Origin: Chrysophaeum taylorii | Taxonomy: Eukaryota; Sar; Pelagophyceae; Pelagomonadales; Pelagomonadaceae | DNA: 40,258 bases | Direction: 5' to 3' | NCBI GenBank assembly: GCA_029834535.1 | Contig: JAQMWT010000611.1 | Location: 1 to 40,258, forward strand | In this document: positions 6,205 through 32,916 of the stretch, piece by piece | How positions within the stretch are numbered: the stretch's first letter is position 1 | Layout of the letters: every line of letters starts with the position of its first letter | Notes under the pieces: generated by a model | Database searches by the model: none | What the model saw: the letters and a program-made list of their open reading frames with translations, nothing else | Told to the model about the DNA's origin: nothing | Position numbers and translations under genes: made by a program

Positions 6205-6266
6205 GGTGGTGGAGGACACGAAATCCCGTCTAATACCTGGCGAGGAGGAACTCGACCCGCATCGCC

Positions 6267-8105: not shown

Positions 8106-8113
8106 ATTTCAAT

Positions 8114-10299: not shown

Positions 10300-10680
10300 T
10301 CGAGAAAGAAGAGATGATCATCGAGGCGAGGTAGAGTGGCGTGGAGCCGGTGTGAGGCATGATTTCCTCTGCCTCGGACAAGATCTGTCCGAATTCGCGG
10401 GTTTTGGCAACGGCGCGGGGGGGTGGGGATTGGTGGAGCGTCTCGGCAAAAATGTCGGCTCCCTTCAAAATCAAGAAAAGCAGTTGACGTCGTCGTAAAG
10501 GGAGGCGATTTGAAGCGGGGTGAAGCCATCGTCGCTCGTGGGCTCGTCGAGGTCGGCACCCGTGTCGATTAAGAGCAGGACGGACTCGACTGTGCCGTTG
10601 AGCGAGGCCAGGTGGAGGGGTGTCCAGCCGTCGGGTCGCGCCGAGCCGACCTCAATGGGCGCCCTTGTCGTTCAGTCGCA
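10300..10680 (-). pseudogene. Ankyrin-repeat fragment, antisense inside the gypsy-type element
   Basis: The minus strand encodes two consecutive ankyrin repeats: DGWTPLHLASLNGTVESVLL then LIDTGADLDEPTSDDG followed by FTPLQIASLY (about 10490-10640). After a frame change come LILKGADIFAET (about 10440-10475) and HTGSTPLYLASM (about 10330-10365). The T-P-L-x-x-A and G-A-D spacing is typical. No start, promoter or flanking exons were seen. Its orientation opposite to the retroelement suggests a captured host gene fragment. Confidence 0.75.
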
Positions 10681-10739
10681 CACTATACGACTCCAGAAAG
10701 ACCCAAACTCGCTTCTGCGAATGAGTCGTCATACGGCTC

Positions 10740-10870
10740 ACCATCACTGACGAGACGACGGTGCCCAACGTCGGCATCGTTGCGGACACCAACAAGCTTT
10801 TCCTCTTTGGGTGTCGCGACATCGAAGCCCTGGGGTCAGTCGTGGACTTCCCTAGGAGCCGAGCCGCATC
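10740..10870 (+). pseudogene. Possible aspartic protease remnant of the gypsy-type element
   Basis: The plus strand reads LTITDETTVPNVGIVADTNK then LFLFGCRDIEALGSVVDFP. The second part resembles the conserved ILG-R-D-L block near the end of retropepsins. The catalytic D-S/T-G was not found upstream, where the ankyrin fragment lies. The position, before the methyltransferase and RT, is right for a protease, but the call is tentative. Confidence 0.3.
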
Positions 10871-11724
10871 TTGTTGCACCGCTCGCAGACAGTGTACAAG
10901 CGGAGAACGATGACTTACGCGGACGAAGAGTTTCGGCCCCCAAGATGACCCGCCGCGCGCTTTACGAGGATGAGCCCATCATCGCGCCGATCTACACCCG
11001 ACAGCAAACCGCGATCGCCGAAGCAGAGCGCAACCGCGGCAAATGAATTTTACAGCCGGAATGGACTATCCAAGATCTGTGCCGGCCACCCCCCATTCGA
11101 TCCCTCGCAAGCGTGACGATCGGCGAAGCGCCCGATCTCCCAGACAACATGACGCACGTGTCGACGCAACCCTTGTGCACCTTCGCCAAGCGAACAGTGC
11201 TGGTGCAGTCCGGCCGCACTTCCAATGTACCCGTGACGCTTTCGCACTCGACGAAACCAGGACTCGCGTTTGTGACGACCCCGTTCGTGCACTGAGAACG
11301 TCGGCGTCGTAGCGGGAACTTGCTCGACTCACGACCCATCCGACCCACAGTCTGCCATCGTGGCCCTGTCGTCCACCGACGGCACTCCGACGACCCTCGT
11401 ACACGGCCATCGCATCGCGCAGGGCGATATCGTCCGCCGCGCCAAAAAACACCAGCGATCGACGACGACCCTGCAGGCGACTCGACCGAGGCCACAAGCG
11501 CCGCCGCGTTCTCAGTGTCAATCGCAAGCAACGAAGCGCGAGCCGGTAGCGAGCGACCACTGCTGCTCAAAAAGACCTCGGCCGTCGGCGACTCCGACGA
11601 GAAGACCTCCGACGGAGATGAGTCCACAGTCGCCGACGACGGATCAACGATCGTCCGTCGCCCTTCCCGAGAGGAAACCCGAGAGGACTTCCCGCAGCGC
11701 CATAGCCGGCTCGAGTGCGACCCT

Positions 11725-12700
11725 TTCACCCACACCTACGTGGTGGTGTGCTTCGCCGGCGTAGGCGGAGAAACCCTCGGAATGCAATGATGCAACGAGC
11801 GCCACGGGACTTACTTCCGCATTGTTCTGGCGATTGACTCTTCGACAACCGTGATCAAGGTCCATCAAGCTAACTTCCCTGACGTGCCGATCGTCCAGCA
11901 CACGCTCTGCGGATAGTACGAGACCACGCTCATCCTAATCGCGAGCTATCTGCCACCGGACAAAAGGGCAGACGCCTTCTTCTTCGTGGGCATGCCGCCA
12001 TGCGTGCACTCTTCCCGCACGAGCCTGATCCGACGCGATGTTGTTAAAGGTGTCACGGCGCAGGCTCGTCGAACAAGAACCCTCGCTCCTACCGGAAGTC
12101 GTTCGCCTGTACCCGCACATATACGTTACCGACTTCTTCGCGATCATGCCCGGGTTAATGAGCACGCGCAAGCGAATGTTGATATCGAGCCACCCACTCG
12201 CCTTTCCAGAAGTCGAGAAAACCTGCCCAAATCTGCAGAAAGCCTTCGGCGCTCAACTCGGCTACCCGAGCGAACAAGAGCTCCTCCAGATCAGCCACTT
12301 CGGGATTTGCCATTTCGCCACAGAACCGGCGTGCACGCAAACCCGACGGCCGTTACGAGTCGGTCCGCACCGCTACGCCAAACCGCTGACTGTGGAGATG
12401 ACCGCAAACCTCCTGACAATGCCAGCCGACTTCAATTGGCTGGATACTACAATCACGGATCGCTTCAAGCACCTCTCGTCCGTGATACCGCCCGACACGC
12501 TCGCCGCACTCGCGTTCCAGTTCCACAACCACGTGCCGCCATCTTGTCGGAACACCGGCCCTGTCCGCGACGACGCCTTTTGCCTCGTCAACGACCCGAG
12601 CGAGATAGTCCTCGCGTTTCCATCGGACACCACGGACCCGGACCAACCCGCTCTCAACGTCGTCGAGACCAACGTTCATTTCGAAACGAGAAATATATGA
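11725..12700 (+). pseudogene. Cytosine-5 DNA methyltransferase domain in the gypsy-type element
   Basis: C5 methyltransferases move a methyl group from S-adenosylmethionine to cytosine. Motif I is VVVCFAGVGGETLGM (11740-11784); the acidic SAM-binding strand is VLAIDSS (about 11824-11844), followed by HQANFPDVP; motif IV is FFFVGMPPCVHSS with the catalytic Cys codon at 12001-12003. A frame change near 12035 leads to TRKRMLISSHPL (motif VIII, about 12155-12195), then KPLTVEMTANLLTMPADF (motif IX, about 12379-12432) and LSSVIPPDTLAALA (motif X, about 12476-12517). In-frame stops occur at 11788-11790 and 11914-11916. No clear ENV motif (VI) was seen and the distance from PPC to motif VIII is short, suggesting a deletion. 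It lies between the protease position and RT in the same orientation, so it is part of the retroelement polyprotein. Not functional in this copy. Confidence 0.85.
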
Positions 12701-13039
12701 CCCGGTCACGTGGAAGATGCCTGAACCTCGCGTTCCGCAGGACAAGACGCGCCGGAAACGTGGCATTCTTATCCAGCGAGGGACCCACCCGACGCCGATT
12801 CGTTCATCATAGCATTCCAACACGCACGACAAACGGAGCAGAGAAACAAAAGTAGGCCCTGAGTTCGCTTCAAATACGAGGAAAAGCTCGATGGATGCGC
12901 CGCGCGACGAAGATGGAGCGCGGCTGCCGCAACCCCCCGAGCACCTGAAGGAGGACAACGAAGCTATGAAGGTCAAGATCCCGACCAAAGAAGAGGTAGA
13001 GAAAGCCGGCGGGAAACTAGGAATCCGAACCATCCGCAC

Positions 13040-14480
13040 TTGGACGAAGATGCGAAGCTGATGCCGACACACTGTGTCCGGTACGCCTGGGCGTTCTTCG
13101 GTCTCATTAAGATGCCCGTCGATTCATCTCCGGTGTCGTTGCGGTTCAAAGATCAAAACTCAAAGTCGATCAAGATGACGCCCTATCGATTGACGCCCTC
13201 CAAACTCGAGTGCTTGCGCAAGCAGATCGAAGAGCGGTGCCGAGATGGAGTGGTTCGCTCGGCTAACTCGCCGTGGGGATTTCCTGTCCCCGTGCTGCCG
13301 AAGAGAGGAGCGGAGATCGGAACCTCCAGCGCCTTTCGTGCCCCCCTCGACCTCCGGCAACTCAACGATCAGCTAGCCGATGACAGCTGGCCCAACGTGC
13401 GTCAAGGCGACGCACTAGCCTACCTCGCCAGCCGAAGATGGTGCACTTCGCTCGATATTAGACGGGGCTATCACAACCTCCGGTTGGACCCCGACGCTCA
13501 AGATGCCGTCACCATGGTTATTAGCCCTCTTGGCGCGCACAGCTTTTTGCGACTACCACTCAGAGTGAAGACCGCCGGAGCCCTGTTCTGCGAGCAAATG
13601 ACTAGCGACCTGTCGAAGTGGATGTGTAGTGATTTGATCGCACTCATTGACAATATCATGATGGGCACAGGCGACATTCACAGCCACGTCCAGTGCTTCA
13701 TCGATGTCACCTCGCACGGAAAGGCTACAGTGGTCGCACCTCCAAGTTCCACCTCCTCCAAGACGAAATCGAATTTCTCGGACGCATATCGACCCCGAAG
13801 CTTTGAAGCCGAACCCCAAGACGCTGAACGCTTTGCGGAAGATGCTCATTTCAGGCACTCTCTCTGGGACTTCGATCCGGTCCTTCAAAGGCATGTCCAA
13901 CTACTACCAACGGTATGTCAAGGACTACTCGAAGATCGCGGAACCGCTGCGCCAATTCTATCTCGATGACATTCACTTCAATTGGACGCCCGAGTGCCAG
14001 AAGGCCTGGGACACGATTATCGAAGCATTGGTCGAGTCACGCAGAGTGTGCCATCCTAACTTCGACTTGCCGTTTCAGATCAGATCCGACGCCTCAAAGG
14101 ATGGGCTTGGCGCCTACCTTTTCCAGGTCGCGTCCAAGTCGAAGACGATAGCCGAGCCAAAACGCGGGAAGAACACCTCATCGAATACTGGAGTCGGGCC
14201 GTTAAAAAGGAGATGCGCCAACACGCCGCCTCGAACTTTTTGCCGGCATCTTGTCTCTTGTCTCTGGAGCACTTCCGACCGTACATCGAAGGACACCTCA
14301 CTATTCTGGAGACGGACCACCGCAACCTGACCTTCCTGCGCAACACGACGCTAAAGTCTAGACAGCTCGCCCGCTGGGCGATGTGCCTCGCCAACTTCGA
14401 CCCGGAGCTTGGCTACAAGCCGGGCAAGTCCCCTGGCATGAACATCCCTGATTGCCTGTCGCGCAGCCGAATCGACCATA
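13040..14480 (+). pseudogene. Ty3/gypsy reverse transcriptase and RNase H
   Basis: Frame 13040-13969 holds RT: PYRLTPSKLECLRKQIEE (about 13180-13235), DGVVRSANSPWGFPVPVLPK, DLRQLNDQ, SLDIRRGYHNLRLD (about 13449-13490), and the catalytic box as LIDNIMM (13643-13663). The usual Y-x-D-D has become I-D-N, losing the second metal-binding Asp. A shift leads into 13704-14330 with FKGMSNYYQRYVKDYSKIAE and FQIRSDASKDGLGAYLFQ (RNase H start), then a further shift to EHFRPYIEG...ILETDHRNL and NIPDCLSRS (14213-14475), the usual end of a gypsy RNase H. RT/RNase H upstream of integrase defines the gypsy order. Inactive by frameshift and active-site loss. Confidence 0.9.
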
Positions 14481-14762
14481 TGATCGAGACCGATGAGTTT
14501 GGAGAGCCTCTCAACCACCCGTATTTGGTCGTGCAAGAACTGCCCAAGACCAACGACGACGACGACGGCAAGCCGATCCCTGGCCGTCACGTGACTTTGT
14601 CCTTTATCACCACGGACATCCCCGAAGAAGAGGAGGATCCCCGAGACGATCCTTGTACCTTATGCGTCGCAAGCGCTACGCGACAACGCTAGAAAGCTCG
14701 GATACATATCCAACAGCATCCTCTTCACGACGCCGCCATCGGCGTAGGCTCACCCAGCCGTC

Positions 14763-15720
14763 GTGCAAGCCTACGTCGACGGTATCCCTCAGAACTTTAA
14801 CCCGAGCGAGATCGCCGAAGCACAGAAGACCGACGACACCTGTGGGTTGATCCGCGACCAGATGGCCAATGGTCACTCTTTTCGTAAGTACGGGCACTGT
14901 CGCTTCGAGATCATCAGCGGCGTGCTGTACCGGATCGCCGCCGACCTGCGCCCGATGATAGTAGCTCCCGCAACGTCGCGCCAGAAGATCATTCGACTCC
15001 ATCACGACAGCCCCGTCAACCATATGGGTCGTGAGAGCACCTACCGCACCAACTCGGAAAGTTTTTTGGTGGCCGCACGTGTCGAACGACGTCGGGAACT
15101 TTACACACCGATGCCTCGTCTGCCAGAAAGCGACCAATGACTCGTACGGACGCTCTGACAGACACCAAGAACGCTCTTCGTTTCTACACCCAAGTGGTCG
15201 CCGAAGCTCATCAGAAGGCCAAGCAAACGCAGAAGCTGCTCTACGACGCTGACCACGTCGACGTCGCGTACGCCGAAGTATCGCGCGTTCTCCTGTACAT
15301 CCCCAAACCTCAAAACAAGCAGCGCCCCGAGTGGCGTGGACCCTTCCTTATCACCAAGCAGATCTCGCCAGTCACGTAAAAGATCAAGTCCCTCGATGAC
15401 CGTGCCGAAGAACGCGTCGTTCACGTCCAACAGACCACTCCCGCCTCGGTACCGCCGATCGTCGACACCGCCGCTCCTCAACCGCCCCATGTCCCACGTC
15501 ACGACTACCAGCGCGGCCGTCTCATCGTCCTCCGGATTCCCGACTTCAAGGATCGCAACTGGCGTTCCAAACTCCACGTCGCTGAGATTTACGAGTCCGA
15601 CGAGTCCTACGACTGGGAGATCGACCGTCTCGCTCTCCGCACGTTGATCTCGGCAAAGATGAGAACATCCGGAATTATAAGCCGGCGTCGCACCTTCTCG
15701 ACCGACAGCTCAAGCCTGAA
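14763..15720 (+). pseudogene. Integrase remnant: zinc finger and C-terminus, catalytic core missing
   Basis: The frame from 14763 reads KIIRLHHDSPVNHMGRESTY (about 14985-15045), the HHCC finger start; the continuation FFWWPHVSNDVGNFTHRCLVCQ-type sequence with the C-x-x-C is in the next frame (about 15060-15125). The following frame (15137-15379) starts at once with post-core sequence (ALRFYTQVVAEAHQKAKQT) and the GPY/F-type block EWRGPFLITKQISPVT (about 15330-15375). The roughly 150-residue DDE core that should lie between them is absent, so there is a deletion near 15135-15145. Downstream frames to 15720 are basic and Ser-rich and not assigned. Confidence 0.8.
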
Positions 15721-15988
15721 TTAAAAACGGTCGAAGGTCGCAGAGTCAATCTCAAGAAAAACATTACTACCAACTGTGCCCCTTGTGTCAAAGATTTCGC
15801 AACCCGCGAGACCGATGTCCTTATTCACGGGTTCACCCTTTACAGTGGCAAAGTACCCGAAAAGATCGCCGCTCGCGTCTACGATCTCCTCTCTTATCGA
15901 GAGAAACTTCGATGCAAGTCTCTCCGCAAATCCTCCAAGAAAAACCGTTGAGGCCTGCGCGCTGAAACAAACCCTGGGAGGGGAGGCC

Positions 15989-16366
15989 TGCAACGGCAAT
16001 TCTTGCTTTTAGCCTTACTCTAAATATTTTGCCGTTAGCTTTACCCTAAATTTCACTCCTTGCCCTGCTTGCACACCTTATCATAGCCTTTTCCACCCCA
16101 CGCCCCTAGTAATTGTCAGAGAAACCTACATTTGTTTCATCCATCCTCGGACCCTACGTCAGCATCCCTCCTTGAGGGTAATTTAGCCCTAATTTTCACC
16201 ATAAATTATTTGTCGTCTCGTGCGTTGAGATGGCGGTCTGTTGTTGACTTCTGCGAGGCGGAAAGAGAAAGAAGCCGATCCCTGTTCGGAATCACCGTGC
16301 TCTACGAGGATCTCGGCCGAGTCAGGGCCATAAGCGGACGCCCCCCATTTCTTTCCTGCCGTCGCA
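15989..16366 (+). repeat. Right LTR of the gypsy-type element
   Basis: It begins TGCAACGGCAATTC directly after a purine tract (gggaggggagg, 15976-15986), the expected polypurine primer, and ends CTGCCGTCGCA. It is longer than the left LTR (about 378 versus 257 bp) and similar to it mainly in its last 150 bp. Confidence 0.75.
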
Positions 16367-16525
16367 ATGAGACGATATATCTAGACCGCGGATTTCTCAA
16401 GAACTCACGACGAATGGAGAGAAATCTGCTGCCTCTTACCCTTATCCGTCCGTTGAGAACGTGACCTCTTCCTTACCCTTCTTCTTCCTTTCTACACAGT
16501 CAATTAGTACTCTGACATGTGCAGG

Positions 16526-16860
16526 CCAGTAAGTTCACCTAGTCCGAATCTCTAACCCCAGTAAGTTCACCTGGTCCCAGTAAGTTCACCTGGTCAGTAA
16601 GTTTACCTAGTCCAAATCTCTAACCCCAGTAAGTTCGGCGTAAACCAACTCGTGCTCACACCCACTCCTTTGAGCTCGTCGCTCTCACCCCCGCCAGTCC
16701 AAGCTGCTTTGATCCGCACGCGCCGCCAATCCTTGAGTTTACTCTAAAAAACCCAGTAAGCTCACCTGGTCTCAGTAAGCTCACCTGGTCACTGTATTCA
16801 CATAGTCCCAATCTCTAACCCCAGTAAGTTCATCTTGTCCCAGTAAGTTCACCTACAGTG
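16526..16860. repeat. 3' subterminal short-repeat array of Helitron copy 2
   Basis: At least eight imperfect copies of the AGTAAGTTCACCTGGTCC unit, with the spacer atctctaacccc repeated several times and a single non-repeat block (about 16640-16745) shared with copies 1 and 3. Confidence 0.75.
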
Positions 16861-17470
16861 CGCGTGTAGACGCCGGGAGGGGGCTTGTCGGTATTGCGCA
16901 GCACGTGTGGGGTAGGGTGGAGTCGTCGACTCAGAAGAGCATATTCTCGGGGCTGCCGATCGACAGAGAGCCACGTAGCGCTGGACGTGACAGAAGACGG
17001 GCTTGGGCAAGAGGACGCCGACCTCGCGGGGCGTCTGGCCCTGGCTCTTGTTGATCGTTTGGCGTAGGCGGGCCTTAAGGGATACAGGTTGGAGGAGCCT
17101 CGGTGATAACGACACGATCGATCATGTATCTGGTACCGTTACAGTGGCCGTGGGACGGGTCGAGGTTGCGAAGACCTTAAGCTCGCGCTCAAAGTCAGCA
17201 TGCCGTTGGTTGTCAGGGAGTTGAAAACTCGACTGTAAAGAGCGAGGCGTCGTCTTCCGACCCAACCTAGTCTCCCGAAAAAGAACTCCGACGCCTCATC
17301 TCCGGGGAAAAAAGGCCGCGGTCATGCGCGCGTTGTCAGCATCGACAACATCGTTTCGACGGGGCGTGAGAATGGCGCGCTGAAAGAGCCGCCGCGGGTC
17401 GTGGAAATAGTCTGCGAGGTCGCCGTAGACGGCTTGGAGGATCAATGGCTGACTCGCGGGCCTATCTGAT
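16855..17470 (-). pseudogene. Helitron helicase C-terminal fragment (copy 2)
   Basis: On the minus strand, 16849-17115 reads LKARLRQTINKSQGQTPREV then GVLLPKPVFCHVQRYVALCR, the last conserved blocks of a Helitron/Pif1 helicase. NLDPSHGHCNGTR lies in the next frame near 17125-17170. Upstream of this, AILTPRRNDVVDADNA (about 17325-17375) is the conserved A-I-L-x-P-x-N-x-x-V block. The three frames show decay. No Rep domain. Confidence 0.85.
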
Positions 17471-17639
17471 CCTTACCCTAACCCGATTGACAAACACACA
17501 CACCCCCCTCTTAACAATCCTAACTACTAATCGACAGATGTTTGTCTGTTTGTCTGTTTGTCTGTCCCTCGATTTAGGGTAAGGATCAGATAGGCGCGAG
17601 AGTAAGGATCAGGTAGGCGCGAGAGCCAGACAGTGATCC

Positions 17640-18215
17640 TCCAAGCCGTCTACGGCGACCTCGCAGACTATTTCCACGACCCGCGGCGGCTCTTTCAGCG
17701 CGCCATTCTCACGCCCCGTCGAAACGATGTTGTCGATGCTGACAACGCGCGCATGACCGCGGCCTTTTTTTCCCGGAGACGAGGCGTCGGAGTTCTTTTC
17801 GGCTGACTAGGCTGGGTCGGAAGACGACGCCTCGCTCTCAAGAGTCGAGTTTTGAACTCCCCAACAACCAACGGCATGCTGACTTTGATCGCGAGCTTAA
17901 AGTCTTCGCAACCTCGACCCGTCGCACGGCCACTGCAACGGTACCAGATACATGATGCAACGGTACCAGATACATGATCGATCGTGTCGTTGTCACCGAG
18001 GCTCCTCCAACCTGTATCCCGTAAGGCCCGCCGACGCCAAACGATCACCAAGAGCCAGGGCCAGACGCCCCGCGAGGTCGGCGTCCTCTTGGCGAAGCCC
18101 GTCTTCTGCCACGTCCAGCTCTACGTGGCTCTCTGTCGATCGGCAACCCCGAGGATATCCTCTTCTGAGTCGACGACTCCACCCTACCCCACACGTGCTG
18201 CGCAATACCGATAAG
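17640..18215 (+). pseudogene. Helitron helicase C-terminal fragment (copy 3)
   Basis: Plus strand: LADYFHDPRRLFQRAILTPR (about 17660-17718), LRNLDPSHGHCNGTR (about 17904-17950), QTITKSQGQTPREVGV (about 18035-18083) and VFCHVQLYVALCR (about 18101-18140). A local tandem duplication of about 24 bp (gcaacggtaccagatacatgat, 17936-17978) disturbs the block after CNGTR and is absent from copies 1 and 2. Confidence 0.85.
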
Positions 18216-18239
18216 CCCCCTCCCGGCGTCTACACGCGC

Positions 18240-18585
18240 ACTGTAGGTGAACTTACTGGGACCAGGTGAACTTACTGGTTTTTGAGATTGGGACTAGGTG
18301 AACTTAGTGACCAGGTGAACTTACTGGGATCAAGTGAACTTACTGGGGTTTTTAGAGTGAACGCAACGGCTAGCGGCGTGTACGGATCAAAGCAGCTTAG
18401 ATTGGCGGAGGTGAGAGCGACGAGCTCGAAGGAGAGTGGGGTGAGTAGATGTGAGCACGAGTGGGCTTACGCCGAACTTACTGGGGTTAGAGATTGGGAC
18501 TAGGTGAACTTACTGGGACCAGGTGAACTTACTGGGGTTAGAGATTGGGACCAGGTGAACTTACTGGCGAACTTACTGGCCTGCA
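18240..18585. repeat. 3' subterminal short-repeat array of Helitron copy 3
   Basis: About nine copies of GGTGAACTTACTGGGACC or close variants, in inverted orientation relative to the arrays at 126-385 and 16526-16860, with the same unique block (gctagcggcgtgtacggatc and onward) in the middle. Confidence 0.75.
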
Positions 18586-18783
18586 CTTGTCGACATTTAA
18601 AGACAAACAAACAAACAGACAGACAGACAAACGTCTGTCGATTAGTAGTAAGGATTTGTGCTCAAGCTCATCTTCATGGTCTAGCGCGCCCCGAGGTATG
18701 TAGCACTATACACTTAACCTTTCTCGTGTAGTTCTAGATGCCGCCTGTCGTGTTCTGAGGATATACGGAACATACCTTTCATT

Positions 18784-21677
18784 CAGCGTTGGGAATTCAC
18801 TGGGCTCACTTCACTAGGTTCACTGAATTTGGTTCACTTCACTTCACTTCACCGAGAATTTTCGTCCGAAGTCCAATGTTCACTTCACGTTCATTCACTT
18901 CGGCTGACGGCCTGACCCTGACCCCGTCTGATGAGCGAAGTCGAGCCGCGCTACCTGGAGGTGGTGGATAATGTTGATGATGAGGAGGAATACGCGGAAC
19001 AGAAGGAGGAGCACAAGAACGAACCGATTGCGACGTCGATGTTGTGACGTGGAACACACCCGGCAAAAGTGGACGATCAACCAGGTTTTTCCAAGGTGCG
19101 GGGCTGCGTGCGTCGACCGAAGGAAAATCATCCTGACCGCGTTGACCAGTGGGAAGGCGACGACGCGCATGTGTGTATCCGGTGCTGGGAGCGCCAGAAG
19201 GTGACGAGAGACTTCAAGAAAGGCACATGGCAGACGACCAAGCCTCTTGCCCAATTCAAGCATGCGCATCCGGAGGACGAGCTGGGACGTCGACAGCTCA
19301 CCAAGAAACAGAAGACAGACCAAGAAAAGGAGGGCGTTATGACGGCCGTCGGCGTTGTGGTAGCCTCGACGGGTAAATCGGATATTACGAGTTACTTCAT
19401 GGCCATGCCCAGCCAGGCAAAGCACTCTTCCCTGATGGCGTTCTCGGCTCGGCACTGCGTGTACACGTCGCAGCGGATTTCCAAGCGCACCTTTGACGAC
19501 GAAGATCATCGCAGCCAAATTGAGGCGTATTACCGCGGCGGTGGCGGGAAAGGCAAGTGCCCGTTCATGACTCGAAAGGCGCTGTTTGAATGGGTGGACG
19601 CTGAATATCGTTGCTTTGTTCGAATCTTGAAGCACGTCGTTGCGGAGTGTTATGAAGCAGTTTTCGGCAATCCATTCGCCCAGGTGCTGCATGACGGCGG
19701 GAAACTCAAGGATAAGTTCAAGCGACACGCCATTGGCCTATCCTTCATCTGGCCCGATTGGAGTGGCGTTGAGACGGTGTGCGTGGGCCTCGTTCCAGCT
19801 GACGACGGAACCGATTCCGGCACGGCTTTTCTGCTCCGTTCTGATGTCGCGGAGCGTGCGGGAATCGATATCGATTTGGCGGCCGCAACCATTGTTCAAG
19901 AGACCGGGCTGCAATTGGCGTCGCCGAAGAATTTTTTGTTGAGGTCGAAGCGTGTGACATGCATGATATCTCAAAATCTCGGCAGCGGCATGTGGCGACT
20001 TGACACGATCCAGAGGCAAGCAGGTGATCAATCCATTCCCAGCTGGCCAGGAGCTGCTGAACATTGCCCACGATGGAGCCAAGTTCTTTTCTTTGCACAC
20101 GTTTGAAGGATCTGCATGCGCTTTTGCCATTACAGCCGGGGAAATCGCCCAAGCTCAAGCTCAAGCTCGACCTCAATAAGACGAGGTTCCGGGCGCAATA
20201 CCAACTTATTCGTTCCTTGCTGCGTATGCACCACGTGCTCAAACTGTACGCGGCTACCAACATTGGACTCCCCTGGACAATCAGTGATGAGCAATGGGTG
20301 GCGTTGGCTGAATTCGAGGCGATTTTTGCTATAACGGATGCGGCCGTTATTTTCGTGCAACATGAACACTTATACGTGGGGGCGTGCGCCGCATTGATCA
20401 AGCACAACATGGTCGAGTCTCTGCGAGCTGGGACGCTAGAAGTCATTGATCTCCCGAACATAACTGCGAAATCCATGCCACGTAAGACTGTCGATGTTGA
20501 CGACCTCAGCGAGACCGGCAAAATCTGTCTTGAGCGGGCTATTCTCGAATGTGAGCGTCGGTTTTGCGGGAATAATGAAAGCTACGTGCGTCACTTCGAC
20601 TACGAATTCAACGATCGCGAGCTGATTGCCTTCCTTCTTGACTTTCGGACTGTCAACTGCCGGCGCCTGTCGTCCAATCAGAGAGCTCAGGCCAGGAAGT
20701 TGCTCAAGGGAGAATATGTGATTTACGCACGGACGGCATTCCACCACGAAAAGGCAAAGACTTCCTCCGAGTCTGCGCCGCCTTCCGAGCCTGCGCCTGC
20801 CCGCAGTCTCTTGGCGGCACTCGACGCACCCGACGCTTGGGTCGACATTAGTGGCGACGTGCCTTCTTTTGCTATGTCTGAGAACCAGATGCCCGATTTC
20901 AATGTGGAGTTTGAACAGGTCTTCACTCAGAGGATCAGGCTCTCGAGGTCGCTCAACTGGAAAGAGCATTATCCTGAACTTGAGAAGAAGGATGAAGTCG
21001 GCTTCATAGACCTGGCTGTGCTCGACGTTGGGAAGCTGTATCGACCGCTCACCAAGGAGCAGTATAAGTTCCTTCCGGACATGGCGAGAGCCTCTAAGGG
21101 TTCAATTGGTACACATGGCGCGCAGATCTACTGTGAGCGCTGCCTGAGCATTGGAAATCTTGTCCTGACTGAAGGAAGCACGTTGCTCAGCGCGGACGAG
21201 ACGGACAAAGCTGCCCTACTGCGCATGAACAAGAATTTCATTGCGGCGGCCCGGATTAAGTGCAGGGACCTCGCCGAGACCGAGTTCAAAAACGCCGAGA
21301 GCACCATCCCCGAAGACTCTTCGGAGATTGAGGTTGATGAGGAAGAACCAGACGAAGATACCGAGGTAGTTCACATCGCCTAAAGTAAGAAACACTGAAC
21401 CCCATCCACGGTAACTCCTCCTTCGCCCCGAAACGCGAAAGAATCTAAGAGCACCAGACCTAGGCAATAGCGCGCGGAGGGCACGGAACTGACGGGGCGC
21501 GGCAGGGACCGGCGCTGGCGTTAAAAAAAAAAAAAAAAAAAAAAAAAAGTGGCGTTCACTTCACCAAGGTTCACGATGGCCACGCAGGGTGACGTGTTCA
21601 CTTCAAATCACTTCACCAATATTGCGTGGCTGGTGAAGTGGTTCGCGTTCACTTGCTGAAGTGAATTCCTAACGCTG
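18784..21677 (+). mobile_element. Full-length hAT DNA transposon
   Basis: 2894 bp, bounded by 17-bp terminal inverted repeats CAGCGTTGGGAATTCAC (18784-18800) and its complement GTGAATTCCTAACGCTG (21661-21677, one mismatch), with an 8-bp target duplication ctttcatt (18776-18783, 21678-21685). The empty site acctttcatt|ccccgaatt is present in the right LTR near 34047-34065. Subterminal regions are dense in GTTCACTTCAC words (18800-18905, 21550-21660), likely transposase binding sites. A 26-nt A run lies at 21523-21548. It encodes a transposase (18931-21383). Confidence 0.95.
18931..21383 (+). pseudogene. hAT transposase (BED finger, catalytic region, hATC dimerisation domain)
   Basis: The frame opens at ATG 18931 with an acidic N-terminus, meets one in-frame TGA at 19045-19047 and continues to about 19960. 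A BED-type zinc finger is visible as CIRCWERQKVTRDFKKGTWQ then TTKPLAQFKHAH (about 19177-19270). The downstream block CDMHDIS, in a different frame (about 19953-19975), fits the C-x-x-H motif, after which the frame from 20064 (to 21383) carries NKTRFRAQYQLIRSLLRMH and the hATC domain ending YCERCLSIGNLVLTEGSTLL...LLRMNKN (about 21130-21235), the dimerisation signature. The C-terminus is acidic. The stop and two frame changes (near 19950 and 20130) could be mutations or unspliced introns; intact termini show it moved recently enough to keep its empty site recognisable. Confidence 0.88.
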
Positions 21678-21771
21678 CTTTCATTCCCCGAATTAAAAAC
21701 TTCCAGGCGTTCATGATGAGACGGAATGGTTTCCCAGGTGACTTACCACTGCATATGCTAAATGCTCTGCA

Positions 21772-22295
21772 GGTTATGGGCCCAGGCGGGTCCCTGAGAA
21801 ACCATGTGTTAACGCGTGCAAGTAACCTATGGGTTTTGGACTGTTACCGCGCCAGTCCAGCCTCGCCACGCAAACACGCTTGTTTATATAACGCCACTAC
21901 CATTGGGCTGTATATAGCATATTTTGCATACGTGATCGAGCAACCTTGTGTGCGCCTGTTCATATTATCGTGTTGTCATGTTAATGTTGATGTGTGTGTA
22001 AGTTGGCTAACCTGTACTCTTGCACACATGTTATGGAATATTTTGGGTACGTCCACTCGTACATTCCATGGCAAGGCACTTACCAAGCTCCTTTAGAGAG
22101 CACCAAAATAACCAGCTGCCATGAGTGACTACGCTTAGCGGCACTACTCTGGACTCACAGCTTGCACAGTTGTCAAATAGACGTTTTTCCATCGATAACG
22201 CATGAGTGTACATAGACACCAATAGACAGACCCCCTTGGAATGTCTAGACAGTGTCAACTGCGTGACTGAACCTACAGGTTCCCCGTCAAGTGCT
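21772..22295 (+). other. Copia leader between LTR and Gag
   Basis: Contains the primer-binding-site position immediately after the LTR and then AT-richer sequence with no convincing coding signal up to the Gag ATG at 22296. Possible packaging region by position only. Confidence 0.45.
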
Positions 22296-24242
22296 ATGGC
22301 AGAACACGCAGCACGAGCCGCACCCAAGGCGATCACAGGTGCGGACATACTGAAGCTCGAAGCTCCTGTAGTTGAGTTTCTCAACGAAGGAAATCGATTT
22401 CAGCTTCAGACCCGCAAGGTATCCTTGCAAATTAAGCATATCCAACAATTATTACGGTCCAGTCATGCCAATGCCTTCCTCGAGTACGACTCGTACGAAG
22501 CATACACTCGGTCATGCAAGGACTACGAGATCCTCCGGAATCAAATTCTCGATCGCGTTTTCCTGGAATGGAAGACCGATAGGGCTGCTGATCTCCATTT
22601 AGCTGTTGATGAATTGCCCCCTGAGTATCAGGAATGGCACTTCACCAATGAAGCTTTCCCCAACTTACCTGACGCAGAAGTAGCTCAGCTAGCTACTGTC
22701 TGTTGCGACAATGAAGTCAAGGCATTGCGCCCTGAAATCAATCTCCGTTTCTTAGAAGAGGAACGAATCTTAAATAGCGCGCGCCCGAACGCATTAGCTT
22801 TTGACACCCGTGTTCGTGCCCCTGTTACCATGTTTTCGTTAACTGCTGCTGACTGGCACACTTATCAGAACACGTATGCTACATTCTTGCATACTCACTT
22901 CAATCTTGAAAGTGTTGAAAACCAAAAACCAGCACTTGCTGCCTGGCCCGCCATCAATGAGGTGTATAACAAAAGTTATTTACCCAACAAGGCTCGCGCC
23001 ATTATGCTCGTTGCCTTTAGTCACTACGAGTCTGTTACGGCTACTGATGTGTCCTACCTGAAACAGCAGTTTAACTCTGTTGTTTATAATCCTAACTGGT
23101 ATGTCCATATGTCTTTATTGAAGCTGTCCTAGCATTTAGGCAAATCTCTTACCAACTTAACCAGGAAGAGACTGACCTTCAATTCGACTTTGGTACTCTT
23201 TGTATAAAAATTTATGAAGAGATACATCGGCATTATGCCGATAATACCAGCAACAACCAATACGATCGTGGTTGGGTAGACTGGTGTTATATGTATGAAA
23301 CTCGATCTTCATCTCGGCCTGTTCCAGACGCTGAACGATTGTGTCACCCTACCAACCCTAGCTATATCTTAGAATACGCATTAGACTTATACAATGTAGT
23401 ATCAAATGGGTCGAACAAAGACGCTTAGAACGCCCTCATCAGCCAGTGTCAGCCTCATCAGCCATGCCGTGCTTTTCATCAAATGACGATAGCGAAGTAT
23501 GATCGGCATCCCTTTTGCTTTCGGCTTGTGGTGGTTGGTTGAAGGCAGATTGGACCTGTGAATATAGCGAGGACAGTAACGCTGGTGGTAAAGCCGAGAT
23601 GGCGGAAGCAGTAAAGAAGTTAGGCACAATATTGGAGGGATTACCCTGTGTGTTGGGGGGATTCTTCGTGTCTGTAGTAGGAGGCTGTCTCTTGGCAACC
23701 TTACGTCGAAGGATTAACACCACAACCAAAGCCGAAATTACTACTGACAAGCACGCTGGATCTATCAGACAAAAGTCTGACTCAAACTGCAAACGCACTT
23801 GCGTCCATTACTTCTTCTCAACCTGGAACATCCGCCACGTTTAACGCTAGACGCTTGCGTAACTCTAACGATGCACGCCAGCCTTTCTCTCGCAGCGACT
23901 TATCGTATTATCGTTCTGGTGATTCTTATGTCACCAAGAAAACTGCTGGACAGTCCCATGACCGTCCAATTTACCCTCGCACTTTCGACAGGTCCTCTCG
24001 ATCTAATATGAAGTTATTGGACCGAACGAAGCACACCATAAATACACTGCAAGAGCAGTGTAGTGAACTTACGAAGCATGTGACATATAATGATATCTCG
24101 GCTCAGCTACAACAGAACATCACCAAGTTATTTGAGACTCTGTTGAAATCCGCCGTTATTCTATCAACCACATCTGAGGACAATGGTGACTTACTTCGTC
24201 TAAACGAACAACTCATGTTCGCAGAAGACATCATTTTATGAT
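22296..24242 (+). pseudogene. Gag of the copia-type element (rearranged)
   Basis: The main frame runs from ATG 22296 to 23132 with a mostly helical, charged product (MAEHAARAAPKAITGAD...). After the stop the coding signal continues in the next frame (EAVLAFRQISYQLNQEETDL, about 23120-23180) to a stop near 23429. The stretch 23430-23700 is an inverted copy of 24330-24580 and interrupts the gene. Gag-like sequence resumes at about 23783 (basic, Ser/Arg-rich, nucleic-acid-binding in style) to 24241, with a helical tail LDRTKHTINTLQEQCSEL. No CCHC knuckle was found. A one-base shift at about 24235 joins it to the protease frame through the first TxxSLNY motif. Gag identity is by position and composition. 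Confidence 0.6.
23430..23700 (-). repeat. Inverted duplicate of the Gag/protease junction
   Basis: The minus strand here repeats, at about 90% amino-acid identity, the plus-strand sequence at 24330-24580: IVPNFFTASAISALPPALLS, QPPQAE and SSFDEKHGMADEAD occur in both. The copies are in opposite orientation about 0.65 kb apart and could form a hairpin. The inserted copy breaks Gag. Confidence 0.9.
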
Positions 24243-24260
24243 GTAGACGTTCATCTATCT

Positions 24261-24284
24261 TCGACCGAAAAGTCGTTAAACTAC
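24261..24284 (+). other. TxxSLNY motif 1 (Gag/PR border)
   Basis: Frame-consistent STEKSLNYVE. Codons ACC, TCG, TTA, AAC are the same as in the other copies. It lies between Gag and the protease. Confidence 0.7.
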
Positions 24285-24306
24285 GTGGAGCCACAACATC
24301 ATACTG

Positions 24307-25332
24307 TTGCTACTGCTCCCACCCCAAAGGCAACTTACTACAAATACCAAGAATGGCTCCAACACACAGGGTAATCCCTCTGATATTGTGCCTAACTTCT
24401 TTACTGCTTCCGCCATCTCGGCGTTACCACCAGCGTTACTGTCCTCGCTATCTTCACAGGTCCAATCAGCCATCAACCAACCACCACAAGCCGAAACCAC
24501 AAGGGATGTCGATAAGACCTCGCTATCATCATTTGATGAGAAGCACGGCATGGCTGATGAGGCTGACGAACCATCACCACCTGTTCAACCGATTATCATT
24601 CCAACTCACTTGTTATTTCTGGAGAACTTCTTCACTGCCAGCCTCTCCACTACTTGCCCGCATTCGGAAAATGCACTTCTAACGAAATATATGAAGGTAA
24701 ACAGCGTTCCCCAACATTGTTCCTTTTCATATTTTGACTCCTGTGCTACCATATCGTTAATGTCCACCTACGACTATGCGATTCCAAATCATATTATTCC
24801 ACTGGATCCCAAATACGCGCCGATTAATATACAAACTGCCACTGGACAACAACGTGCCTCGCATATGATGTTAACACGTAATATTGTTGTCCCACTACCA
24901 GATCATCCACAAATCGGTTACGTAAAGATTGACTTCGCTTCATGTCTTCAGCCAGTGCACAACCGACATCTCGCTATATTGAGCATGCTCGAGTGGAACC
25001 AGACAAACTTGACCACTGTGTTCAGTGATCGATCTGAGCCAAAGCTCAGCGCTGTCGCGAGCCGCATAGACAAAGATGTGCGTATTCCCATACATTACGT
25101 AGAAGCTAACTTGCCTGCTCTCCCTTGTCTCACCTACAACATCGCTCGCGACAAGCAACTCGAACTACGCTCCCTCGCATTTCCGCTCAAGCGATACCAC
25201 GAAAACAGGGATCTACTGGCATACTATAACTATCTCCTCAAGAGAGTTTTACCAGATCGCCCGTGGATTCGCCCTTTGGTTCTTAATCTTCGGAAACAGA
25301 ACAAATTCATTCAGCAAAACACTCCGCCATAA
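24307..25332 (+). pseudogene. Aspartic protease module of the copia-type element
   Basis: Open frame of 342 codons with no ATG near its start, consistent with being part of a polyprotein. The N-terminal third is Ser/Ala/Pro-rich linker (the segment duplicated at 23430-23700). The protease core begins with FSYFDSCATISLMSTYDYAI (about 24724-24783), which sits where copia retropepsins have D-S/T-G-A; here the Gly is Cys. A hydrophobic block IGYVKIDFASCL (about 24913-24950) and LAILSMLEWN (about 24971-25000) match the later strands of the fold. It would cut the polyprotein; the recurring TxxSLNY motifs are candidate substrates. The Gly-to-Cys change may inactivate it. Confidence 0.6.
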
Positions 25333-25338
25333 ACATGA

Positions 25339-27580
25339 ATGCTTTCTCGCCCTGTGTTTCTCTCACAAGAGCCCAATCTTCGCAAACCCTCTGTCATGTT
25401 ACTTTGTTCTGGTTTGTCAACCCCAGCGTTCCTGTCTCAAGCCACTAATGACCTAGGCTTAAATATCAATGTAAAAGTTGTTGTTGAGTCTGATGATACG
25501 CTTGTGCGCATGTTACGCCACCGTTTTCCTACAGTGTTATTATTTGAATCTTTACCCGCCTTTATTAAGCACCTTCACCAAATCTCACCAGAGGAAAGGC
25601 GCAAATTTTATTGCGATATTATTGAGATAACTCCTCCCCGCACTAACAGGAATCTACTAAAGCAGCTTAAGACTGAAGACTTACACAGCCTGCTCGACGA
25701 CTCTCTGTTCGACAGCATGCTGTCTGTCATCAAACTTCTCCAACCCTTGGTACTACTGGCTGAGATGACACCACCCCACAAGTATTGTCATCAAGACCAC
25801 ATAAATGTCGCCAATCTCATCCATGCCACACTCGATTACTGTGTCGATGTTGTTGACAGGTTCCCGACCTACCTATGTGGCGACTACCAATCTAGGGAAA
25901 GATGGATCTGCATCGCACGCAGGTATTCTACTGGACCAATCAACATACTTTCATGGCCTATCCACCACCCACGCCCCTTCCTTAAGATCTAACTAAACTA
26001 ACTTCAGACCTCTCCCGAGCATGGGAGCCAGGCCGGACCGACAGGTGCCAGTCCGGAATCACGGGCCTGTAGACGAGGAGCGCCGAAAGGTAGGTCGGCG
26101 GAGATTGACCATCAAGCTTGTCGCTATGCGACGAGGAGACCGCGATGTGACTGACAACCAACTCGTCGATAACCTTCCGTCTTCGCCCCCCGGCCATACC
26201 CCGTCCCACTGCGAACGTTCCGGCTGCCAACCGGCCCGCCCGGGAGGCGAATAGGTGCCAACCTACGCCGGGAGGGCGGATGCCCTCGCAAGGCTCAGGA
26301 TTCATGAGGATCGTGGATGACATACAAGCCATTCCTAAACGACTTTGGCTATCAAAAGATATCGCCAAAGACTGGATCCGGGTGTTCCCTGACCCCCCAG
26401 ATGCCCCCGTTCCTAAAACGTTTGCACCTTACTCTCGCACAGGTTCTGTTCAGCTTACTATGACTGACCTTGAAACACTCAATTTGTTATTTCTTCGCCT
26501 TCACTCACAACAGGCTCACGAGCAACGCACGCACTCTGTTCAATCCGAGTGTACTTATCATCAGCTGTGTTTCAAACGCTCCTCCATGGAACCACTGCCT
26601 CATGCAACTAATCCATTGCGTGTCAAGGCCTTTACCATCCTCTACAACGTGTTCGCCAGATTGCACACTAACTCACCCACTTCTGTGTCCTATTACATAA
26701 CCGTTTTCGAAACTGACCAACCATCACATAGGTTACTACTTACAACCTCATCAACATCACACAACACCTACTTCTTAACCGGTGGCCACCACACTGACGG
26801 CAACCTCACCATAGAAAACGCCGCCACCAAATATCATGCTTCCATTGACGCGTTTGGAAGCACGTATACGTTTACTGCCTCCAACGTCCCCCGCGACAGA
26901 GACAGATCTATATATTTGGAGCCGTTTATGGGTTACTTGTGGATAATCCAAGCCCTTCCTCAAGTTGGCTCCGCTGCCGCCTATGGCACCGCCATACAAA
27001 AGCTCTTGTCCAGATGCTCTCTTGTGATGCCTGGCTGCCTTACCTACAAGGCCACCGACAATTCTTTCGACTACAAGGATTCTCATTTTGCTCTGGAAGA
27101 TCACCACTTATCCCATAGTCGCTATATAGGGTATCTTCGTGGAAGTGACCGCAAACTCGGCTCTAAAATCCACTCCATGCTTGCTCCATTGCCCACCGTC
27201 CGAGGGTATGCAAACATTATCTTACTCGACCCTCGCAACGGGAAACTACGCTATCCTACTCGACCGGAGTTGATTCGTGCTAACAACCACACCAAACAAC
27301 AGGAGTCTTTCCTCTTGTCTCTTCGCCACGACCTTTGCTGCGACATGCTCAGCAATGCTCTGCCTGCCGGTACGTACAGCACACTGTACAAGCACCTCTC
27401 GCTCCTCGTTGCCGATATTAAATCCCTTATGTTGGACCCTACCTTCCAACATACTGCTGCCGTGATGAAGAAATCCTATGTATCCACCTTCATGACCTTT
27501 GATCTGGACTCCACCACGTGCAGCACAGATACCTTGTCTTTGGCACAAGCCTTCATGACTTCTATCTCCAGCAACTGCTT
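25339..27580 (+). pseudogene. Cytosine-5 DNA methyltransferase module of the copia-type element
   Basis: Two frames (25339-25992 and 26280-27818) split by a 0.29-kb repeat form one domain. Motif I: SVMLLCSGLSTPAFLSQ (about 25390-25440). SAM-binding acidic strand: VKVVVESDD (about 25472-25498). Motif IV position: CDIIEITPPRTN (about 25612-25650), where the catalytic Cys of P-C is Arg. Motif VI position: VLLAEMTPPHKY (about 25747-25785), keeping the Glu. Motif VIII: DYQSRERWICIARR (about 25879-25920). After the insertion, about 300 residues of target-recognition-like sequence lead to GKLRYPTRPELIRANN (motif IX, about 27241-27288) and MLSNALPAGTYSTLYKHL (motif X, about 27346-27400). All motifs are in order, so homology is convincing although catalysis is doubtful. 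It lies between protease and integrase, and ends at the second TxxSLNY motif. Confidence 0.75.
25993..26289. repeat. Structured dispersed repeat inserted in the copia methyltransferase
   Basis: It begins about CTAACTTCAGACCTCTCCCG, shared almost exactly with 39630 onward, and its 3' part (ttccggctgccaaccggccc, gggaggcga) resembles 39885-39915. Short palindromes (CTCCC-gagcat-GGGAG; CCGGAC...GTCCGG) suggest folded RNA. The middle differs between the copies. It may be a SINE-like or MITE-like element; class unknown. It separates motif VIII from the target-recognition part of the methyltransferase. Confidence 0.6.
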
Positions 27581-27602
27581 GACCGAAATGTCGTTAAAAT
27601 AT
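27579..27602 (+). other. TxxSLNY motif 2 (MTase/IN border), variant SLKY
   Basis: In-frame LTEMSLKYIS, after methyltransferase motif X and before an acidic linker (DDEDAPPSDPAAHQDDDAPP) that leads to integrase. Confidence 0.7.
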
Positions 27603-29755
27603 ATATCTTCGTCCTACGAAGATACTCTCGCTACTCGTGATGATGAGGATGCACCTCCAAGTGACCCTGCTGCGCACCAGGATGACGACGCACCGCCTCC
27701 TCCTGCCTTGGACACCGAACTCAAGTTCGATGTTCGGCGCAAACGTCATATCCCCGCTCATCCCATTCCTCGCGAATCCTTCGCACACGGATCTGCTGAA
27801 TACCTCAACGCCAAATAACGTGCCAATCGCTTCCACCGGGTGCACCACTGCCCCGACAACGTTGCAGCCAAGGCCCCCAACGTACTGGCTCGCCCTGGCT
27901 TCTCTGCCTCAGACCTACCGTATCGCGACTTATGCACCGACTGCATTGCGCACTACAAGCGCCACCCGCACAAGCACTTCAATCCGACCAAGCCCTCTTT
28001 TGAGCAAACTTACAAAGCCGGCGAAGTCTGGGCGTGCGACGGCGGCTATGTGACAATTCCATCAGAATGGGTTGGCTTCACACACATTACTGTGCTCAAG
28101 GAACTTATCTCGAAGTTTCTCTTGGTGTACTTTACACGCACCACCAACGCCACGGAGTTCACTCAAGCTCTGGACTTTGTGTATGACTTTTGTCGTACAC
28201 AACTCAACGTGCACATGCGCACCCTCTACTCTGATGCCTTCAAGCCCCACTTTAGCCAGCACATTACCTCCCCGTACCGCGTCACCGCGTCGATAAGGGC
28301 ATTCAGCTCATCGCTATCCCGCCGTACATGCACCACTTTAACTTTGAAGTCGAGTCAGCCATCGGCTTCATCGCCTCCGCCTCCTCGACTCGCCTTCGCT
28401 CTCTCCTTAATGCTCATTATCATGGCTCCAAAATCGTGGAACCAGCCATCATGTTTCCCTGGGCGGTGATACACACCATCCAAAGCTACAACCTTCTCCC
28501 GAACGCCACGCTCGAGCGCATTCACCATGCTATCCTGAGTCCGCAACAGCTACTCTACAATCAACTGAGCACTCCCCAGCATGACATGCTCAAGATCTTC
28601 GGCGCTGAATGCTACCTTCTATTGGAACCCCACGAGCACCACAAGTGGGGACCGTGCCGCCGCAAATACTTATATCTATGTTGTGCCAACGCGCAAAACA
28701 CGCTCGTCTCCCCACGTGTTGACCATATTGCCGACGTCGTCCTCAACCCTGAAAACGGACAAATCCGTGTTTCGTCCAAGCTGCAATTCCTCTGCATGCT
28801 CCAGCATCCTGCTCCTGATCCTGAACTTGCTCCTCCGCCTCACGCTCCTCCCGCGCCTTTCTCGCTCACACCCCACGCTGCTATCCAAGACCATTTCATT
28901 CAGAGGGGGACACGGACACCTCATCCTCAGAGGGGGCACTCTCCACCTCCCTCAGCTCCTTCTTCGTCCCCTGCTCCTGCTTCTCCTCCCCCTTCCGACG
29001 CTCCCGTCGACGATTCTGGCTCTATGCCACCGCCGCCCTTGCTTCCTTCTTACAAAGACCTTTTTGCACAAGATGACCTCATTCTTGTCCCAGGTTCCAA
29101 ACAACCTAACAACCGCAAGGCAACCTCCATGAAAAATATCCAAGCCCGGCTGCAAGCGTCTACTATTGGTGCTTACAAAGCCGCTGGTGGCAAACTCGCC
29201 GATTTCCGCTGGGATCTTCGCCACCACTTTCTTACGTTCAAGTCTCCCGCCCTCTCCGCCCTTCATATCAATGGTGGTATCCTCTGGTCTGCTATCTGCT
29301 CAGAGGGGGAACATGCGTTGTTAGCTCGTCTTCTTCTCCCGTTGCGCACTGACTTACTTGCCCGTTACCCTCACGTCGATGGTTACTTCGCCCACGCTAA
29401 GTGCGCATCCAGCATCCCAGCCGCAACCTTTCTAACTGCTGATGGTTCACCTACGCGCTCCATTCCTCAGCCTCTTTTAGCTGCGTTCACTGAGCACGCT
29501 GCTGCCTTTGGCATCTCTTCATTACAGTATGCACTTACGTATCTGGCGCCGACCAGCTTTATCGATCACAACTCCTCCGAGTTTGGCGCTAATTCTGCAT
29601 CTCTGTCTGACTTGGAGGAATACCTTCTGGTCTCTACAGAGTATATCACCCAGGTCTTACATGCCGACCCTACTATCCATATTCAACTGGAATCTGCCCC
29701 TACTACTCCTACTGACGCTGTTTCCGCTTATCCCGAAGTCGCGCACACTGCCTCG
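27600..29755 (+). pseudogene. Integrase of the copia-type element
   Basis: After the acidic linker, a stop at 27816-27818 interrupts the frame; the coding signal continues in the same frame from 27819. The zinc-binding part shows RFHRVHHC...LCTDCIAHYKR (about 27825-27965). The catalytic core shows EVWACDGGYV with the first Asp at about 28038-28040, LYSDAF with the second Asp at about 28232-28234 and, after a one-base frame change near 28285, YMHHFNFEVES with the catalytic Glu near 28345-28353. The remaining C-terminal region (to about 29750) includes a long Pro/Ser-rich stretch (about 28810-29040) and a helical domain. Integrase upstream of RT identifies the copia class. This copy is broken by the stop and the frameshift. 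Confidence 0.85.
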
Positions 29756-29776
29756 ACCGCAACGTCGTTAAACTAT
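29753..29776 (+). other. TxxSLNY motif 3 (IN/RT border)
   Basis: In-frame STATSLNYSS at the point where the integrase tail ends and RT leader sequence begins. Codons are ACC GCA ACG TCG TTA AAC TAT. Confidence 0.75.
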
Positions 29777-31645: not shown

Positions 31646-31660
31646 AGATGCCTAACCCTA

Positions 31661-31684
31661 GTGACCGCAACGTCGTTAAACTAG
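31661..31684 (+). other. TxxSLNY motif 4 (after RNase H), ends in stop
   Basis: In the RT frame, six codons past its TGA, the reading is VTATSLN followed by TAG where the other copies have TAT or TAC. Nucleotides match motif 3 almost fully. This suggests that the ancestral frame continued from RNase H into module X. Confidence 0.65.
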
Positions 31685-31738
31685 CCCTGGCCCTACCTTC
31701 TTTTGCCACATTTTTTTGTGCGCGTGTGAGTGTCGCCT

Positions 31739-32830: not shown

Positions 32831-32916
32831 TGTTCGGCCCCACTTATACTCAGGCAGAACATCAAGACTTTCTGCGCTTTTTAAACGCGAAATACCCCCC
32901 ACTTACACAGCATGTG

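Follow-up and report, generated by a model that had tools for sequence, protein, structure and literature searches.

We analyzed a stretch of 40,258 nucleotides of Chrysophaeum taylorii DNA (bases 1-40258 of contig 611, referred to here as the window), in which a decayed Ty3/gypsy element is adjoined by a decayed Ty1/copia element. Both are long terminal repeat (LTR) retrotransposons, and each contains a region with motifs of a cytosine-5 (C5) DNA methyltransferase (MTase). The genome that was searched for relatives amounted to 70.8 Mb in 697 contigs. An earlier note had placed C5 motifs in the two elements, upstream of the reverse transcriptase (RT) and in the orientation of the element. We re-derived the motifs at 11740-12505 in the gypsy element, adding a motif VI-like LVEQE, and at 25393-27374 in the copia element, adding PPR at the position of the catalytic cysteine; both domains lay upstream of RT on the + strand. 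The motifs were named by eye. The features of the two elements were as follows, ORF standing for open reading frame:

6054..16366, + strand: Ty3/gypsy element, an old decayed copy (self-blastn; RT, RNase H and MTase matches)
11740..12505, + strand: predicted gypsy C5 MTase domain, motifs I to X in order (motif coordinates, translation, genome relatives)
12863..13966, + strand: gypsy RT (RVT_1, E 0.0023, below the curated cut-off)
13983..14398, + strand: gypsy RNase H in two frames (RT_RNaseH_2, 1.6e-12; RT_RNaseH, 1.1e-12)
16420..34140, + strand: Ty1/copia element, type 1 (repeat comparison)
22206..23425, + strand: copia gag (E 2e-177 and 2e-64 against the 401-aa ORF of genome copy L023), named by position, with no Pfam hit
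24280..25329, + strand: copia ORF with putative protease (E 5e-168 against an L023 ORF)
25393..25989, + strand: predicted copia C5 MTase, motifs I to VIII (motif coordinates; E 6e-133 against an open copia copy)
25990..26312, + strand: insertion of ~320 nt interrupting the copia MTase behind motif VIII (repeat partly copied at 39628-39973)
26313..27374, + strand: predicted copia C5 MTase, long insert region and motifs IX and X (E 4e-247 against an open copia copy)
27819..28466, + strand: start of copia integrase (rve, E 0.09, below the cut-off)
29954..30616, + strand: copia RT (RVT_2, E 2e-42)

The gypsy element has terminal repeats of ~150 nt, at 6054-6204 and 16217-16366, that are 88.7% alike by self-blastn. 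Its MTase is broken by a stop right behind motif I and, further on, by a change of frame: motifs I (11740-11787) and IV (11986-12015) precede this change, and motifs VI (12065-12085), VIII (12155-12196), IX (12380-12424) and X (12470-12505) follow it. The MTase pieces and the window RT both matched their counterparts in open gypsy copies, the former with E values of 2e-48 and 2e-7 and the latter with one of 2e-112.

The right LTR of the copia element covers at least 33827-34140, and its left LTR was found in pieces at 16420-16522, 18638-18784 and 21678-21771, split by two insertions. The copia protease was assigned by position and by a D-S motif recognized by eye, without a Pfam hit. Motifs I (25393-25440), IV (25612-25653), VI (25747-25779) and VIII (25882-25923) precede the insertion in the MTase, and motifs IX (27246-27290) and X (27342-27374) follow it. 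At the catalytic cysteine of motif IV the window copy reads PPR, while the eight other type 1 sequences compared all read PPC. The window integrase matched the L023 integrase stretch with an E value of 1e-94. Both window MTase copies are decayed and, as judged from these lesions, probably inactive.

Less damaged copies, which the earlier note had proposed to look for, were found for both elements. Other genome copies of the gypsy element (best 150 of 717 candidates, and 138 of 990 scored in a second list) and of copia type 1 (best 150 of 940 candidates) were open through the part searched; these copy lists count the query's own place. Leaving aside the window itself, the listed type 1 copies were 74-98% identical to it. 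The gypsy copy L031 contained a complete predicted MTase of 281 aa, with motifs I to X (including LFSGAGG, SPPC, IEQE, SCRVR and VVPPD), inside a 1294-aa ORF that overlapped a second ORF with RT, RNaseH, H2C2 and rve, which is the RT-RNaseH-integrase order of Ty3/gypsy. In the type 1 copy L023, the MTase region, rve (below the cut-off) and RVT_2 shared an ORF of 1691 aa, and gag-like and protease-like ORFs were present as well. In a second copia family, type 2, the copy L015 carried PF00145, rve (below the cut-off) and RVT_2 in a single ORF of 1952 aa. The protease-integrase-RT order of Ty1/copia was thus found with RVT_2 over the cut-off, rve upstream of it below the cut-off and the protease recognized by eye. 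The open gypsy copies were ordered putative protease–MTase–RT–RNaseH–integrase, and the open copia copies putative protease–MTase–integrase–RT.

We then compared the domains with known C5 MTases. In their broken and divergent state the window copies gave no PF00145 match in the 20 ORFs scanned, and the case for identity therefore rests on the genome relatives. Copia type 2 passed the PF00145 cut-off in all five ORFs given (32.1-34.2 bits, E 1.1e-7 to 2.4e-8). For the gypsy domain, L031 reached 21.6 bits (E 1.7e-4; cut-off 22) and L022 reached 17.8 bits. Motifs I, IV (PPC), VI, VIII, IX and X occurred in order in L031 and its relatives, and in the same order across the frame change in the window copy; motif VI reads IEQE where the usual form is ENV. 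When 5.8 billion protein sequences were searched, the gypsy domain had one match, the Dcm-type protein P0001, and the copia domain had none among candidates limited by length and number. The link from type 1 to the Pfam-positive type 2 came from comparisons of single sequences, which gave 12-26 bits against shuffle maxima of 5.5-9.8, with 25 bits over a 170-residue stretch including motifs IX and X. In addition, the motifs of types 1 and 2 align collinearly over ~550 aa and occupy the same position in pol. The catalytic cysteine was kept in 13 of 13 type 2 sequences, in 8 of 9 type 1 sequences (the exception being the window copy) and in all 9 gypsy rows reaching the site.

Several results weigh against this identification. 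Type 1 (L023, L024 and the window ORFs) had no Pfam methylase hit. Family hidden Markov models (HMMs) tied type 1 to type 2 in one of four type 1 sequences (17.5 bits against a shuffle maximum of 7.4), and in the reverse direction the scores were 5.8 and 0.5 bits against a shuffle maximum of 6.8. A profile-profile comparison of the two types was not significant, which we attribute to alignment rows that are nearly identical (effective number of sequences about 1.3). Profile searches of the PDB with the copia domains matched no methyltransferase, and with the gypsy domain they gave a weak DNMT2 match (E 0.06) that ranked below a designed protein. The Pfam check proposed in the earlier note thus held for copia type 2, fell just short for gypsy L031 and failed for type 1 and the window ORFs. 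The broader claim of that note, that two LTR superfamilies each carry a C5 MTase, was borne out through the open relatives, which the window pieces match and which are tied to C5 MTases. Taking these comparisons together, we hold it to be nearly certain that the gypsy and copia domains are, by identity, a C5 cytosine METHYLTRANSFERASE domain, and judge that the open copies probably encode an active methyltransferase.

Motifs VIII and IX of the copia MTases are separated by a long region (residues ~480-780 of the L015 ORF and ~200-530 of the L023 ORF), which is absent from gypsy and unusual in size.

Selection on the domain was analyzed from ratios of nonsynonymous to synonymous substitution (dN/dS) between pairs of sequences, excluding pairs whose dS was saturated or did not exceed 0.02. 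The median dN/dS of the MTase was 0.17 in gypsy (range 0.05-0.42; 8 sequences, 27 of 28 pairs), 0.10 in copia type 1 (range 0.05-0.24; 9 sequences, 25 of 36 pairs) and 0.14 in copia type 2 (range 0.08-0.46; 13 of 18 loci, all 78 pairs). At five type 2 loci, which were left out, the motif pattern did not find the domain in one frame. The values are biased toward low figures, since open frames alone entered. Values so far under 1 in three families nevertheless indicate selection on the predicted MTase.

We also examined how regularly the domain accompanies these elements. When the genome was searched with PF00145, 123 of 474 candidates were scored and 57 matched, many of them within long open frames; of 20 matches fetched, 18 matched the type 2 copia MTase, one was a DNMT2-like gene and one a DNMT5-like gene. 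RTs were then cross-matched with MTase places, using 138 + 150 gypsy MTase matches plus 34 picked from another list. An MTase match stood at the expected distance from 61 of 150 copia RTs (best 150 of 1693 candidates) and 102 of 150 gypsy RTs (best 150 of 1028). The earlier note had asked for close relatives that lack the domain. The 137 misses were candidates for MTase-free subfamilies, and this explanation was rejected for the four that were fetched. MTase sequence was present in each of these, complete but with a frame change in one, truncated by the contig end in another and lacking the N-terminal part in the remaining two.

A third copia family gave a different result. In the one type 3 copy examined, L048, a gag with zinc knuckle, protease, integrase and RT were recognized by eye, and no MTase was found by HMM. 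In both RT and integrase, types 1 and 2 group together to the exclusion of type 3 (142 v 84 bits and 71.6 v 21.6 bits). The trait, which the earlier note took to have arisen or been kept in both superfamilies, is within copia common to two families and absent from the examined copy of the third. An RT fragment of type 3 also lies in the window at 3466-3918 and matches other genome places (best 150 of 1523 candidates).

What can be read from the sequences themselves is domain identity, the place in pol, orientation, large copy number and low dN/dS. On these grounds we consider it fairly probable that two lineages, gypsy and a copia clade of at least two families, took a C5 MTase into pol and use it in the following way. 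Since the domain lies behind the putative protease in both superfamilies, we infer that it would be made with pol and travel with the particle. Once produced as part of the pol polyprotein, the MTase would stay in association with the particle or the preintegration complex; it would methylate cytosines of the element cDNA or of freshly integrated copies. The host DNMT5 could then maintain the methylation placed by the element, and the methylation may help a new copy to persist or to pass as host-like chromatin. That the element's own cDNA or copies are the main target is a tentative part of this proposal, which we put forward with less than even confidence.

If the elements methylated their own copies at CG, deamination might leave a footprint. 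No excess of CpG transitions was seen: the CG/CHH transition ratio was 1.19-1.24, and the corresponding transversion ratio was 1.13-1.43. The ratio of observed to expected CpG over the full length was 0.89-0.93 for type 1, 0.99-1.06 for type 2, 1.10 for the single type 3 copy and 1.26-1.33 for gypsy; at codon boundaries it was 0.90, 0.92, 0.85 and 0.96-1.26, respectively. CpG levels thus show no clear link to the MTase domain, type 3 being lowest at codon boundaries. Both results count against methylation of the elements' own DNA. We considered CpG depletion as support for self-methylation, because copia looked CpG-poor relative to host genes and gypsy, and rejected it, since type 3 is poorer still at codon boundaries and there is no transition excess. 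The suggestion of the earlier note that the MTase marks the element's own copies or counters silencing is accordingly so far unsupported. As they stand, the CpG data neither show nor exclude methylation; the footprint may be absent because deamination is repaired, because the context is other than CG or because DNA is not the target.

The last of these possibilities leads to an alternative in which the domains act on RNA, either element RNA or the tRNA primer, for example by protecting or priming element RNA in the particle. The lack of a CpG mutation footprint would fit a target other than DNA, and the sole methyltransferase chains touched by the gypsy PDB searches, weakly and over motif I, were DNMT2 tRNA enzymes. 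RNA methylation was also raised for SymbioLINE in the passages used here from De Mendoza et al. 2018 (PMC5890265). Sequence scores point the other way, with 24-28 bits between the gypsy domain and the Dcm-type protein against 5-7 bits with the host DNMT2-like gene, and we consider an RNA target unlikely.

It could also be argued that the domain is a passenger without enzymatic function, the methyltransferase fold being kept in pol for a structural role as a spacer or for binding nucleic acids. Such a role would agree with the missing CpG footprint, with the strong divergence of the copia domains, type 1 being beyond the reach of Pfam, and with the occurrence of arginine in place of the catalytic cysteine in the window copia copy. 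On the other hand, the cysteine is kept in the eight other type 1 and all 13 type 2 sequences compared, and median dN/dS is 0.10-0.17, which makes a passenger role rather improbable.

Whether the two superfamilies acquired the domain once or twice was examined with a matrix of similarity scores with shuffle controls, in which three non-element proteins, P0001 (two domains), the host DNMT2-like and the host DNMT5-like protein, stand in for a tree with DNMT1/3 references. Gypsy and copia domains shared at most 8 bits, in one sequence (L029), and otherwise 4 bits or less, with shuffle maxima of 7.1-8.5. The distance from motif I to motif X was also unlike, about 260 aa in gypsy and about 510-545 aa in copia. 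Two captures are probable because the likeness of gypsy to copia is at noise level and gypsy is nearer to the Dcm-type enzyme. From these scores we regard separate captures, which the earlier note had argued for, as likely; the simplest history would be one capture in copia, before types 1 and 2 separated, and another in gypsy.

A single capture, after which gypsy and copia exchanged the domain in the same host and it diverged beyond recognition, would account for the shared genome and for the place behind the putative protease in both superfamilies. It would also make something of L029, whose scores are marginally at or over the shuffle maxima (the 8 bits above, and 5.9 v 5.6 with the gypsy HMM). 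Set against it are the remaining gypsy-copia scores, the greater nearness of gypsy to the Dcm-type enzyme and the unlike spacing of motifs, so that we find one capture hard to favor. Least probable is that the type 1 domain resembles an MTase by chance and is no true methyltransferase, as its missing Pfam and PDB hits and its mostly nonsignificant profile-profile and HMM scores against type 2 might suggest, since it scores well above shuffles with type 2 in single-sequence comparison, is collinear with it in its motifs at the same place in pol and has a median dN/dS of 0.10.

The host's own enzymes bear on the proposed maintenance step. Among the 20 PF00145 matches fetched, the only host enzymes were the DNMT2-like gene L001 (360 aa, by eye; Pfam 4e-19) and the DNMT5-like gene L002 (4467-9998), which has methylase and SNF2 regions and scores 417 bits to 7r76, presumably Cryptococcus Dnmt5. 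The L002 gene lies in a single open frame of 2086 aa and is therefore without introns there; the host HSP90 gene also lies in a single long frame, and it scores higher with chains named HSP 90-beta (1051 bits) than with HSC82/HSP82 (944 and 938 bits). When the genome was searched with P0001, 60 of the 264 candidates were scored, giving at least 60 matches, each of them over the motif I part; many coincide with gypsy MTase places, as checked in part. In Cryptococcus, which is without de novo activity, DNMT5 maintains methylation, according to the passages used from PMC10538959. A bolder scenario, which we think doubtful, is that the host lost its own de novo DNMTs and keeps a maintenance-type DNMT5 and DNMT2, with the two retrotransposon lineages acting as de novo writers. 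If this were true, mobile elements and not the host would choose the sites of new cytosine methylation, and the host would just copy them.

The window copia element has itself received insertions. One of those in its left LTR is the following:

16514..18652 (ends approximate), no strand assigned: insertion of ~2.1 kb with inverted terminal arms of ~1 kb (inverted repeats)

Its arms are rich in a repeated AGTAAGTTCACCTGG motif, and a third arm copy lies at 112-1030 in direct orientation relative to the first arm. Between the LTR pieces on either side of the insertion there is an overlap of 9 to 23 nt, possibly a target duplication. The ~320-nt repeat at 25990-26312 and 39628-39973 is possibly a short interspersed nuclear element (SINE)- or miniature inverted-repeat transposable element (MITE)-like element. 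Within the protease-like region of the copia element there is a 232-nt inverted duplication (91%), at 23448-23679 and 24336-24567.

Hosts usually employ cytosine methylation against transposons. If an MTase was captured separately by two LTR superfamilies of one genome, in the same place of pol, and was kept under selection through a large amplification, the enzyme would offer a repeatable advantage to retrotransposons. Copia types 1 and 2, with the domain, and type 3, without it in the one copy, provide a natural comparison for such an advantage within one genome.

Retroelement MTases as such are already known, in LINE (long interspersed nuclear element) and DIRS elements of Symbiodinium and in a gypsy element of Klebsormidium. 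No report of another copia element with a C5 MTase was found in the literature searched (titles and abstract openings, mostly open-access), and none is given in the parts used of PMC10538959, PMC3145265 and PMC9998398. One sentence of a 2025 article (MBE, msaf176; PMC12344493) places DNMT3 in 'LTR Copia and DIRS' elements; it cites the 2018 paper, whose text names gypsy, and the passages used contain no copia anatomy. A copia lineage that bears an MTase, and the capture of such domains by two LTR superfamilies of a single genome, hence appear to be new.

The closest known systems are those of De Mendoza et al. 2018 (PMC5890265), which in the passages used reports DNMTs in SymbioLINE, two SymbioDIRS architectures and KnitGypsy, and CG methylation in yeast by SymbioDIRS domains. 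Like those elements, the ones described here have the MTase in the element coding region, many intronless copies and purifying selection. KnitGypsy-Dnmt3 of Klebsormidium nitens is likewise a Ty3/gypsy element whose Pol ORF includes a C5 MTase; its copies are intronless and under purifying selection (PMC5890265, same passages). It differs in being described as Dnmt3-related and in its DIRS-like repeat structure, whereas the window gypsy domain has its best score, among the few enzymes compared, with the Dcm-type protein, and the element has terminal repeats of ~150 nt. As here, more than one retroelement class in the Symbiodinium genome captured a DNMT (SymbioDIRS-Dnmt3 and SymbioLINE-Dnmt); the carriers there are DIRS and LINE, Symbiodinium copia being stated to have no DNMT, whereas the carriers here are LTR gypsy and copia. 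Among exon-rich genes of Symbiodinium, the same passages list Dnmt5, Dnmt6 and Dnmt2 as found, and Dnmt1 and Dnmt3 as not found. SymbioLINE is CpG-depleted (PMC5890265, passages as above), while the elements here show no clear depletion. With ordinary Ty1/copia and Ty3/gypsy elements, finally, the two elements share domain order, RVT_2 or RVT_1, integrase and LTRs; they differ in the extra C5 MTase predicted behind the putative protease, and the type 3 copy L048 has the ordinary form.

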